From Acetobacteraceae bacterium (lineage in GTDB: Bacteria > Pseudomonadota > Alphaproteobacteria > Acetobacterales > Acetobacteraceae), in NCBI GenBank assembly GCA_027449745.1, contig DAIDKZ010000033.1, forward strand, positions 1 through 40,355: a stretch of DNA of 40,355 nt, read 5' to 3'. The position numbers and the translations under genes were made by a program. The notes beneath the pieces are model-generated. The model was not told the origin of the DNA and searched no databases. It saw only the letters and a list, made by a program, of their open reading frames with translations. Below are positions 13,114 to 29,696 of this stretch, in pieces; the first letter of the stretch is position 1, and every line of letters begins with the position of its first letter.

Positions 13114-13731
13114 ATGCGCTCACCCGTTACGCTCCTTCTCGCCACGCTCGCTCTGCCGCTCGCGCTTTCACCGGCGCATGCCGGGAGCCTCTACCCGCTC
13201 GGCGCCAACGCCGTCATCGCGGCCCCGCCCGGCGATGGCTGGACGCTCGGCCAATCCGGCGGCGTGCTCGCCTTCGATCGCATCTGGGACCTGCCCGACG
13301 GCCAGCCCGTGCGCATGCAGATCATTGCCGCCCTGGCCGAGGTGCAGCGCGGTGCCGCGGCGGCGATGGGAGAGGCGGATACCGCGGAGATGCTGCTCAA
13401 TCGCGAACTGGGAGAGGCGGAGAGCGGCGCGAGGACCGCCGGCGGCACCGGCAGCGGGCCAATGGCCGTCACCGCCGGCCAGACCGAAAGCGCCGGGCGC
13501 ACATGGCACTGGCTCCGCTACCGCAGCGATGTTCGCCTCCATGCCGAAAGCCCCGTCGTGCATGAGGCCAGCGTCGTCTATTTCTATCTCGCCCCCGGCG
13601 CGGGCGGCGGTCGGACGGTTTATACGTTCCATATGGTCAACGGCTGCTCGGCGCTGATCTGCGCGGCCGCGGACACCGACGAAACACCGCTGCGGGCGGT
13701 GATCGGCTCGCTGGCGCTGCGGCCGTCCTGA
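13114..13731 (+). CDS. Small secreted/periplasmic protein of unknown function
   Basis: A 205-residue protein starting at ATG 13114, with GAAAGGAAA upstream. It has a clear Sec signal peptide (MRSPVTLLLATLALPLALSPAHA, cleavage near residue 23). The mature part begins GSLYPLGANAVIAAPPGDGWTLGQSGGVLAFDRIWDLP and contains two cysteines near the C-terminus (NGCSALICAAADTDE) that could form a disulfide. A glycine-rich stretch precedes VYTFHMVNG. I do not recognise the family. It diverges from the amidase gene across about 250 bases and converges with the ThDP-enzyme gene, with a double-hairpin repeat between the two ends. Confidence 0.75.
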   Translation: MRSPVTLLLATLALPLALSPAHAGSLYPLGANAVIAAPPGDGWTLGQSGGVLAFDRIWDLPDGQPVRMQIIAALAEVQRGAAAAMGEADTAEMLLNRELGEAESGARTAGGTGSGPMAVTAGQTESAGRTWHWLRYRSDVRLHAESPVVHEASVVYFYLAPGAGGGRTVYTFHMVNGCSALICAAADTDETPLRAVIGSLALRPS

Positions 13732-13767
13732 TCGGCGCCGAACGCGCTACGGTCGCCGCGACAGCCG

Positions 13768-13900
13768 GCTAGAGCAACCTCCGATCTGACCGAGCCGTTC
13801 CGGCTCGGGCCGATCGGAGATAAGTTGCTCTAGAGTCATAGGTTTCTAGAGCACGACCGTCCGACCAGATGATTCCATCAGGTCGGACCGTGCTCTAGCG
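13768..13900. repeat. Double-hairpin palindromic element, copy 1
   Basis: A 133-base element made of two long imperfect hairpins, each framed by CTAGAGCA on the left and TGCTCTAG on the right. Hairpin 1 pairs CTAGAGCAAC with GTTGCTCTAG, CTCCGATC with GATCGGAG, and CCGAGCC with GGCTCGG around a GTTCC loop. Hairpin 2 pairs CTAGAGCACG with CGTGCTCTAG and GTCCGACC with GGTCGGAC, with an inner GATG/CATC stem around ATTC. It is nearly identical to 29199–29330 (one substitution and one indel seen). It lies between two convergent gene ends. The flanking CTAGAGCA recalls RIME-type intergenic mosaic elements of alphaproteobacteria; that comparison is from memory. Confidence 0.92.
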
Positions 13901-13908
13901 TCGGCCCG

Positions 13909-15555
13909 CTACGGCAAGAGACGCTGCCAGCTGCTCTCGAACCCGCGCACGCGCGGCAGCAGGATGAGCGGCCACGGGCTGGGCATTTCGCCGACTGGCA
14001 CGTGGATCAGGGCTGGGTTGCGCCGGGCGATCGCCTCACCCAAGGCCGCCTCCAACGCGGCCGGAGTGGTGGCGCGCCACGCCGGCAGGCCGAAACTTTC
14101 GGCGAACCGGACGAAGTCGGGGTTGGCCAGGTCGCAGGCGATCAGCCGGTTGCCGTACTGCTCGGCCTGGATGCGGCGGACATTGCCGAACGCGCCGTCG
14201 TCGAGCACGATCGCCACGACCGGCAGTTGATGGCGGAGCGCGGTCGCGAGCTCAGCGCCCTGGTAGAGAAAGCCGCCGTCGCCGCACAGCGCCACCACGG
14301 CCCGCCCCGGGGCGGCGGCTGCGGCCCCGAGCGCGGCGCCGTAGGCCCAGCCGAGATTGTCCTGATAGCCGGCGGAGAGATAGCGCCGCGGTGCCGCGAC
14401 GGGGAAGCTGAGCCGGCCGACGAAGCCGAGCTGGGTCACGTCCTCCACCAGAATCCCGTCCTCGGGCAAGGCGGCGCGGATGGCGGCGAGCAGGCTTGCT
14501 TGCGGCTCGAGCGCGGACAGGGCTGGCGCCAACGCGGCTCGTGCGGCGGCGAGATCGGCGCGCGGGGCGCGGGGCGTTTCGCCGGACAGTGCTGCGTTCA
14601 GCGCCGCGAGCCCGGCGGTCGCATCGGCGAGGATGGCGATGTCGGGCGGGCGCGGACGATCCATCTGCTCAGCGTCCGCGTCGATGCGGATGATGCCGAG
14701 CTCCCGATCTTGGCCCCACCAGGCCAGTGGCGCGTGCAGCCGCGTTCCCACGCCGAGCACGACGTCGGTGGCCGCCCAGAGGGCATGGCCGATCGGGCGG
14801 TTCACCGCCAGCGGATGGGTGGTGTCCAGCACGCCGCGGCCGCGCCGGTAGGTCATTACCGGCGCGCCGATCCGTTCGGCGAGCGCCCGCAGCTCAGTCG
14901 CGGCGCCGAGTGCCCCGCCGCCGGCGACGATCAGCGGTCGGCGAGAAGCCGCCAGACGCCCGGCGGCAGCGGCGATGGCTTCGGGGTCCGGGAGAAGCGC
15001 GGCGGGCGTGGCGAGGGGGAGCGGTTCGACGAGCCCGGCGCGGGGCCAGACATCGATGGCGATTTCGAGCGCCGCCGGCCCCTGGCGAGGGCGCATGGCG
15101 CGCGCGATCGCCTCGGCGACGTGGGCCGGCGCCTCGCCGGGATGGGTGATGCGCGTGGCGTGGCGGGTCACATGGCGCAGCAGGCCGAGCTGATCGTGCA
15201 GCTCGTGCAGATGGCCGAGGCCGCGGTCGATCGCGCCTTGCGGGATCTGGCCGAGGATCGCCAGAACCGGCGCGCCGAGGCCGTAGGCCGTGAGCAGCGC
15301 GGCGGCGGCGTTCAGCACCCCGGGGCCAGGCACGACGCAGAAGGCGGCGGGCCGGCCGGTGGCCAGCGCCGCACCGAGCGCCATGTAGGCCGCGGTCTGC
15401 TCATGGCGTGCATGAATGGCGCGGATGCGGCCGCCGGACCGCGCGATGGCATCGAAGAACGGATCATTGTGCACGCCGGGGAGGGCGAAGACGGTGTCGA
15501 TGCCATGGCGGATGAGACTGTCGACGACGGCCTCGGCGGTTGTCATGCGCGGCAT
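13909..15555 (-). CDS. Thiamine-diphosphate-dependent enzyme (acetolactate synthase-like)
   Basis: A 548-residue ThDP enzyme of the acetohydroxyacid synthase/benzoylformate decarboxylase superfamily, starting at ATG 15555 (MPRMTTAEAV; the internal ATG at 15546 is possible). The N-terminal Pyr domain has the activating glutamate E52 in HARHEQTAAYMA. The middle domain contains LIVAGGGAL and GVGTRL. The C-terminal PP domain has the GDG...N motif at about 425–458 (CGDGGFLYQGAELATAL...DDGAFGN), binding Mg and ThDP. No small regulatory subunit (ilvN) is nearby, and the catalytic-subunit variant differs from IlvB, so a branched-chain role is unlikely. The substrate is unknown. It is monocistronic, facing a double-hairpin repeat at its 3' end. 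Confidence 0.85.
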   Translation of the reverse strand: MPRMTTAEAVVDSLIRHGIDTVFALPGVHNDPFFDAIARSGGRIRAIHARHEQTAAYMALGAALATGRPAAFCVVPGPGVLNAAAALLTAYGLGAPVLAILGQIPQGAIDRGLGHLHELHDQLGLLRHVTRHATRITHPGEAPAHVAEAIARAMRPRQGPAALEIAIDVWPRAGLVEPLPLATPAALLPDPEAIAAAAGRLAASRRPLIVAGGGALGAATELRALAERIGAPVMTYRRGRGVLDTTHPLAVNRPIGHALWAATDVVLGVGTRLHAPLAWWGQDRELGIIRIDADAEQMDRPRPPDIAILADATAGLAALNAALSGETPRAPRADLAAARAALAPALSALEPQASLLAAIRAALPEDGILVEDVTQLGFVGRLSFPVAAPRRYLSAGYQDNLGWAYGAALGAAAAAPGRAVVALCGDGGFLYQGAELATALRHQLPVVAIVLDDGAFGNVRRIQAEQYGNRLIACDLANPDFVRFAESFGLPAWRATTPAALEAALGEAIARRNPALIHVPVGEMPSPWPLILLPRVRGFESSWQRLLP

Positions 15556-29104: not shown

Positions 29105-29198
29105 GGCTGAGAGAAGCACGGCAGAGCGAAAGAGCAAGAGGGGCGGCAGATCCGGCCTGCCTGGCCGCGGCGGCCGAAGGCGTGCGCCTGCGGCTGGC

Positions 29199-29330
29199 GC
29201 TAGAGCAACCTCCGATCTGACCGAGCCGTTCCGGCTCGGGCCGATCGGAGATAAGTTGCTCTAGAGTCATATGTTCTAGAGCACGACCGTCCGACCAGAT
29301 GATTCCATCAGGTCGGACCGTGCTCTAGCG
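29199..29330. repeat. Double-hairpin palindromic element, copy 2
   Basis: A 132-base copy of the element at 13768–13900 in the same orientation. The two differ only in the short linker between the two hairpins (gtcatatgttctaga here, gtcataggtttctaga there). It occupies most of the gap between the ATPase start and the end of the next minus-strand gene, and its right-hand CTAG supplies that gene's TAG stop codon. Confidence 0.92.
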
Positions 29331-29696
29331 CCGCCGGCGTGCCAGCGTCAGCAGCACTCGCAGCAGCCTCGCTGCCTCGGCCAGCTCCTGGCCGGCCAAG
29401 TCCCTCAGGCGCGCGGCTTCACGCTCCGCCGCCCCCGGTCGCCGCCGCACCGCGATCGCCAGCAGCAATGTGGCGAGGCCGACATCCACGCCGAGGACCA
29501 CCAGCACGGCCCGCAGCATGCCCAGCGCCGGCGCCAGCGCGAGAATGGCGGCGAGATGCGCGAGGGCGAGGCCGGCCAGGGCGAGCGCGGCAGCGATCAG
29601 ACCCAGAATGGCGCGCAGCAGCAGGCGGCGCAGCGCCAGCCGCAGGCGCACGCTTTCGGCCGCCGCGGCCATTCGTGCGAGGCGGAGGCTGCGCAC
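29325..29696 (-). CDS. Small membrane protein, YqjE/holin-X-like
   Basis: Up to 123 residues, from GTG 29696 (ATG 29672 is the alternative). It has two long Ala/Leu hydrophobic segments (LLLRAILGLIAAALALAGLALAHLA and LRAVLVVLGVDVGLATLLLAIAV) and a charged C-terminal helix (AAEREAARLRDLAGQELAEAARLL) ending in RRRR. This two-helix architecture, directly downstream of a DUF883 gene on the same strand, matches the E. coli yqjD–yqjE pair; the assignment rests on layout more than on motifs. Its TAG stop comes from the double-hairpin element, so the original C-terminus may have been longer. Confidence 0.5.
   Translation of the reverse strand: MRSLRLARMAAAAESVRLRLALRRLLLRAILGLIAAALALAGLALAHLAAILALAPALGMLRAVLVVLGVDVGLATLLLAIAVRRRPGAAEREAARLRDLAGQELAEAARLLRVLLTLARRRR

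Follow-up and report, generated by a model that had tools for sequence, protein, structure and literature searches.

RIME1 of Sinorhizobium and Rhizobium, which goes back to Osteras in 1995, is reportedly a 108-bp repeat composed of two palindromes. The CcrM-associated intergenic repeats (CIR; Chen and Shapiro 2003) are presented in the corresponding passages of a 2007 review (PMC2229807) as intergenic elements of ∼110 bp in which two inverted-repeat arms are connected by a linker and a GANTC is exposed, the mechanism of CIR mobility being left open there. The same passages describe RUP of Streptococcus pneumoniae as an intergenic element of ∼107 bp which has a TA target and ends like those of IS630-Spn1, and for which mobilisation in trans has been proposed. 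Bru-RS1 and Bru-RS2 of Brucella are described as intergenic palindromic repeats of 103–105 bp into which an insertion sequence, IS711, inserts preferentially, duplicating TA within YTAR. A link of CIR or RIME to IS630 was encountered in none of the titles and abstract openings surveyed, a sample lying mostly outside the subscription literature and constituting weak evidence of novelty, and a term search of a 2024 review on MITEs returned no mention of IS630.

Here we describe a double-hairpin element which occurs twice in the window, a stretch of 40,355 nucleotides from an Acetobacteraceae bacterium, and compare it between the draft genome to which the window belongs (G000; 3.3 Mb, 262 contigs, 93% complete) and two congeners, G001 and G002. 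Two near-identical double hairpins in the same orientation had been reported in the first-pass annotation and are confirmed, with bounds slightly tighter than 13768–13900 and 29199–29330 (Table 1). The annotation had also stated that the linker is the only difference between the copies; a linker indel is observed, with up to two substitutions besides. Hairpins A and B are both framed by CTAGAGCA/TGCTCTAG, and the eight occurrences of CTAGAGCA in the window all lie inside the two elements, compared with an expectation of 0.24 and with 0 of 100 shuffles reaching eight. Folding is strong, with z values of -7.9 and -8.4 for the hairpins of copy 1 and of -9.1 and -11.5 for the two whole elements. 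Extra bases are present in the linker-side arms of copy 1, ATAA at 13820–13823 in hairpin A and ACC at 13856–13858 in hairpin B. At the gathering threshold Rfam detects nothing in the window but a tRNA. Adjacent to copy 2 is a 40-bp inverted duplication (98%; 29162–29201 and 29632–29671), one copy of which ends exactly at the element; the arrangement suggests a local template switch in G000, since G001 has a different sequence at the left place.

Table 1. Coordinates of the two double-hairpin elements and of their parts in the window.
Feature	Position	Strand	Description
Copy 1, double-hairpin element	13769..13898	.	130 bp = 126 bp + CTAG; CTAG on both sides; absent from G002
Hairpin A, copy 1	13769..13833	+	65 nt, from fold; outer end from 13772 IS630-end-like by end scores
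Linker, copy 1	13834..13845	+	12 nt
Hairpin B, copy 1	13846..13898	+	53 nt, from fold; apex GATTC (GANTC) at 13871-13875
Copy 2, double-hairpin element	29200..29328	.	129 bp; no element in G001 and G002
Hairpin A, copy 2	29200..29264	+	from sequence and end-pattern search
Linker, copy 2	29265..29275	+	11 nt
Hairpin B, copy 2	29276..29328	+	GATTC at 29301-29305

The element is dispersed in its own genome. At least 42 double copies sharing 87–100% identity were detected by BLAST in G000, one of them cut by a contig end, in addition to palindromic cross-matches; the count is a lower bound, as 40 of the 76 first-look candidates were scored, and it extends the repeat well beyond the two window copies. 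A search for perfect-ended single hairpins gives 76 in G000 and 0 in the control. The case of a two-copy repeat lacking conserved structure, against which the first-pass annotation had set its reading, does not apply, the doubles also displaying two-sided stem changes across genera. Both congeners possess their own versions of the element, median pairwise identity among copies being 97% in G000, 92% in G002 (upper quartile 99%) and 76% in G001. With a looser 7-base hairpin pattern, 71 hairpins are detected in G002 (control 21), 8 in G017 (2) and 91 in G020 (14), a genome of the same family in which the matches are mostly solo 44-bp palindromes (for example G020:C36:106536-106579) whose ends closely resemble those of the IS630 copies that this genome carries. 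In G001 the pattern finds only 7 hairpins, below its control of 20, indicating that the element copies there are mostly decayed.

Beyond the genus, matches become sparse. A match was obtained in 7 of the 60 genomes searched: its own, the two congeners, three of the 33 remaining family members and one of 24 genomes from other families; those outside the genus are weak and chiefly involve hairpin B. A two-hairpin pattern, applied to one genome per species, found at least 101 stretches, 80 of which were kept as loci, and among the matches listed the named hosts include Roseomonas, Falsiroseomonas, Siccirubricoccus, Roseococcus and Sinorhizobium/Ensifer, with MAGs of Paracraurococcus, Devosia and Xanthobacteraceae. 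The first-pass annotation had suggested a genome search with a covariance model; a model of 32 aligned elements, run against 142 genomes from the class, had hits in 13, its own among them; nine loci were read, seven having two hairpins and two having one. For this alignment (A2), 51 of 98 doubles with near-perfect ends were kept and oriented by length, and a limit of two per organism gave 30 references; A2 contains 20 references, the window copy and 11 genus copies, with L072, L094 and L113 left out. Short forms of 104–108 bp were aligned apart (A1), where the second Ensifer row is cut at wrong coordinates.

Copies are also found joined to each other or to other repeats. Some tandem copies have one CTAG in common (L022, L028). 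At L218:5510-5667 a nested composite is observed in which a double element is directly adjoined by a short hairpin combining ends of the A and B types, the CTAG being common to both. Within the genus a further repeat of ∼105 bp, behind which lies a hairpin CTAGAGTCTGTCAGCGC..GCGCTGACAGACTCTAG, is found repeatedly (L212:16788-16904, L187:2976-3100), and the double element has landed on either side of it.

Comparison of flanks among the three congeners, using fetched stretches of 335–390 kb each and some further loci, reveals sites lacking the element. The script returned 25 site comparisons, with 11 empty, 10 filled and 4 other. Seven empty sites are clean at the base level, the bases present being CTAG in five, CCAG in one and CTGG in one; these are six called by the script with exactly four bases left, together with L187:5480, a site in the script class 'other' which was added on a base-level alignment reading GGCTAGTG. 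L208, also classed as 'other', was not counted as a clean empty site, and empty rows were dropped for L217 (a hairpin B remnant in the other species), L195 (assembly Ns), L234 (one flank with 67% identity) and both window copies against G001 (13769, 15 bp left and diverged; 29200, 13 bp left, with CTAG present and the left flank replaced). At the copy 1 site G002 has no element, its flanks being 98% identical and joined at CTGG, and at the copy 2 site both congeners lack the element and show one CTAG, the left flank being different. The TAG stop of a minus-strand ORF, 29325–29696, is part of the CTAG that closes copy 2 (29325–29328) and was left intact by the insertion, as the congeners have CTAG without the element.

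In the fetched stretches C and G flank 46 of 49 pattern-matched hairpins in G000, 45 of 48 in G002 and 6 of 7 in G001. G002 contains a solo hairpin A (L183:11598), a 61-nt palindrome without the extra bases, whose flanks read gatTA..TAacc; it is thus inserted at TTAA, indicating that the duplicated target unit is TA and that CTAG is a preference. All three species carry an element at one common site (L228:9972-10101, L210:2461-2590, L192:10078-10207), in inverted orientation in G001, and the G000 and G002 elements at this site are each of the main sequence type of their own species, which suggests conversion or re-insertion. The recent spread or conversion that the first-pass annotation had read from the near-identity of the window copies is therefore supported both by the absence of these copies from the congeners and by the species-specific types at the shared site.

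The element's outer ends resemble those of IS630-type insertion sequences in their GAGC(A/G) start, a likeness which for the window type is partial and not identity. PF13358, the Pfam family for the IS630-type transposase, is matched 4 times in G002, 3 times in G017 and 21 times in G020 and occurs in 30 of a sample of 40 family genomes; it has no match in the drafts of G000 and G001. A protein search of G000 yields one 43-residue match, so that this draft keeps an IS630 relic only. TA-flanked inverted repeats were sought around 56 IS630 loci with no motif imposed. At 14 of these loci a TA-flanked pair is present, 1.05–1.15 kb apart and with at least one end starting GAGC; the best pair starts otherwise in 18, and no pair is found in 24, many of which are fragments. 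The majority sequence over 28 IS630 ends is GAGCGTTTTCCGATCAGTCT, and CTAGAGCGTTTTCCGA begins both ends of one IS630 in G002. One IS630 end in G020 matches a solo palindrome at 19 of 20 bases, the other end of that insertion sequence being less alike. In G070, from another family, repeats starting GAGCGTTTTCC and GAGCGGTTTCC are present at 4 of 8 strong IS630 loci, the other four having none of this kind, and a double element in that genome begins (TA)GGGCGGTTTCC; no GAGC pair was found in the other six genomes of the G070 search set.

The tail of a second IS630 was detected by protein search at ten G002 contig ends (L313-L321, L323), all with the end TAGAGCAATTTCAGTCTGACTGG. This indicates that a multicopy IS630 breaks the G002 assembly, leaving the tail alone at contig ends, and that genus drafts under-report IS630. 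Twice the tail lies exactly at the CTAG of an element, at the outer CTAG in L323 (the L188 place) and at the linker-B border of another double in L321.

Outer and inner ends of the hairpins differ consistently. Because a GAGC start was the criterion for selecting the IS630 ends from which a scoring matrix was made, bases 1–4 are not independent evidence; on bases 5–18 the outer end outscores the inner one in 28 of 32 elements, for hairpin A and hairpin B alike, with mean scores of -1.0 versus -5.9 (A) and 1.8 versus -10.6 (B). On these bases 11 (A) and 21 (B) other TA sites of the window score above the outer ends, compared with 64 and 344 above the inner ends, and the window's outer ends are thus good but not unique. 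Unpaired bases are more numerous in the linker-side arm than in the outer arm in 30 of 32 elements for hairpin A and 29 of 32 for hairpin B, the inner ends carrying 3–4 extra bases. Palindromes without the extra bases are found alone, as 50- and 61-nt units, and the extra bases may disable the inner ends.

We propose, with a probability of roughly 0.78, that the element is a MITE on whose outer ends an IS630-type transposase acts in trans, duplicating a TA target with a preference for CTAG. The element has the features of a MITE, being short, non-coding and multicopy, with defined ends, empty sites, TA duplication and IS630-like terminal inverted repeats; copy number, empty sites and end likeness likewise favour the non-autonomous mobile unit which the first-pass annotation had listed among its possibilities. 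Judged from sequence, it is probably moved by an IS630-type enzyme. Two palindromes and a short linker would constitute one unit, the outer ends of which would serve as terminal inverted repeats, roughly (TA)GAGC(A/G)nnnTCCGAYC, recognised by a transposase of the IS630 family supplied in trans. The unit would insert at TA, preferably within CTAG, in intergenic DNA, and TA would be duplicated. The 3–4 extra bases in the linker-side arms would spoil the inner ends, with the effect that both palindromes travel together. Several observations weigh against this reading, namely the lack of a Pfam match to an IS630 transposase in G000 and G001, the IS630 loci whose best pair starts otherwise or which gave no pair, the poorer likeness of the second G020 end, the other window TA sites that outscore the outer ends, and the CCAG and CTGG at two of the clean empty sites.

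A mobile element need not depend on IS630. Another TA-duplicating transposase, for example of the IS5 type with a YTAR target like IS711 of Brucella, could be responsible, the likeness to IS630 ends then being convergent or due to chance. CTAG fits the reported YTAR target and TA duplication of IS711, which reportedly prefers Bru-RS palindromes, and no intact IS630 was found in the G000 draft. However, IS630 ends starting GAGC(A/G) recur in the family and in G070, and the element's outer ends outscore its inner ends beyond the GAGC start, which makes a different enzyme unlikely. Spread by a RAYT (Y1, IS200-like) transposase, as in REP/BIME-type elements, would account for the many copies, the intergenic palindromes and the mosaic arrangement, and a search for such a transposase had been suggested in the first-pass annotation. 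No Y1_Tnp match was obtained in the own draft (93% complete), whereas the same search was positive in 5 of 14 control genomes. TA-flanked inverted-repeat ends and empty sites with a single CTAG also differ from REPs, which are defined by GTAG or CGTC at one end (abstract of PMC3733652), and this origin is scarcely credible.

It is also conceivable that the host retains the element for its function in RNA or DNA, as a terminator, processing site or methylation site, mobility being secondary. Stem pairing is indeed maintained: over 26 pairs 96.5% of the cells pair, and two-sided changes are observed in 71 cells, compared with a mean of 22.3 after shuffling and at most 4 in slid controls, the covariation resting on 26 pairs because RNAalifold does not recover the inner stem of hairpin A, in which two loop types are misaligned. 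Of the 32 aligned elements, 25 have in the hairpin B apex region a GANTC, a putative CcrM-type site which may have a role in movement or in the hairpin; the motif is retained in 25 of 26 copies in G000 and 21 of 26 in G002. Copy 1 is flanked by convergent ORFs, of which the second encodes a thiamine-diphosphate enzyme. Against host selection, many sites are not common to the congeners, GANTC is present in just 7 of the 16 decayed G001 copies, and transposition or conversion alone can keep palindromy. The neighbouring genes of 59 elements are in tandem in 34 cases, convergent in 12 and divergent in 13, near the background of 255, 48 and 116 among 419 gaps, with a modest convergent excess and so without strong 3'-end bias. 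Of the 64 elements sampled, a crude gene finder places 63 between genes and one overlapping a gene, whereas 206 of 2400 random 130-mers are intergenic, a result that favours the MITE reading; of the intergenic and 3'-end bias anticipated in the first-pass annotation, the former is therefore observed and the latter is not. A T-tailed bidirectional terminator was sought around copy 1 and none was present in 13600–14050, which, with the lack of a strong 3'-end bias, speaks against the annotation's suggestion of a bidirectional terminator. Primary maintenance by host selection thus appears highly improbable.

The IS630-mobilised MITE proposed here can be compared with the described systems. By architecture it belongs with the CIR and RIME two-palindrome elements of Alphaproteobacteria. 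Like CIR, compared here through the review's description, it is alphaproteobacterial and intergenic, with two long inverted-repeat arms, a linker and GANTC at the terminal loop of one arm; unlike CIR at ∼110 bp, the window element is 130 bp, with forms of 104–108 bp in relatives, and whereas the CIR account leaves the mechanism open, the present data supply a target, empty sites and IS630-like ends. The intergenic location, TA target, IS630-like ends and proposed trans-mobilisation are shared with RUP, which differs in occurring in another phylum and whose description in the review passage does not include a two-palindrome plan with GANTC. Bru-RS1/2, likewise compared by description, are similarly alphaproteobacterial, intergenic and palindromic, with a TA-linked target.

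In Sinorhizobium/Ensifer a 107-bp double hairpin with CTAG ends, a linker and a GANTC-type loop is observed, one Ensifer genome containing 18 matches. It has the two-palindrome plan of RIME1 and is probably RIME1 itself, and the first-pass annotation's comparison with RIME is supported by this plan. RIME1 has a known site near chvI/pckA; PckA and ChvI/ChvG motifs were not encountered near the 18 Ensifer matches, for which flanks of ∼1.5 kb only were covered. More speculatively, and with considerable doubt, CIR and RIME, perhaps with Bru-RS, may form one superfamily of IS630-mobilised MITEs, in which two solo palindromic MITEs were joined, 3–4 extra bases disable the inner ends and make the pair move as a unit, and GANTC at the apex of the second palindrome couples movement or the hairpin to methylation by CcrM and thereby to replication.

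The target, the ends, the candidate transposase family and the solo versus double anatomy together provide a testable model of mobility, one which would explain the presence of such repeats in several alphaproteobacterial families. The recurrence of a CcrM-type site within a mobile hairpin suggests a further simple experiment.
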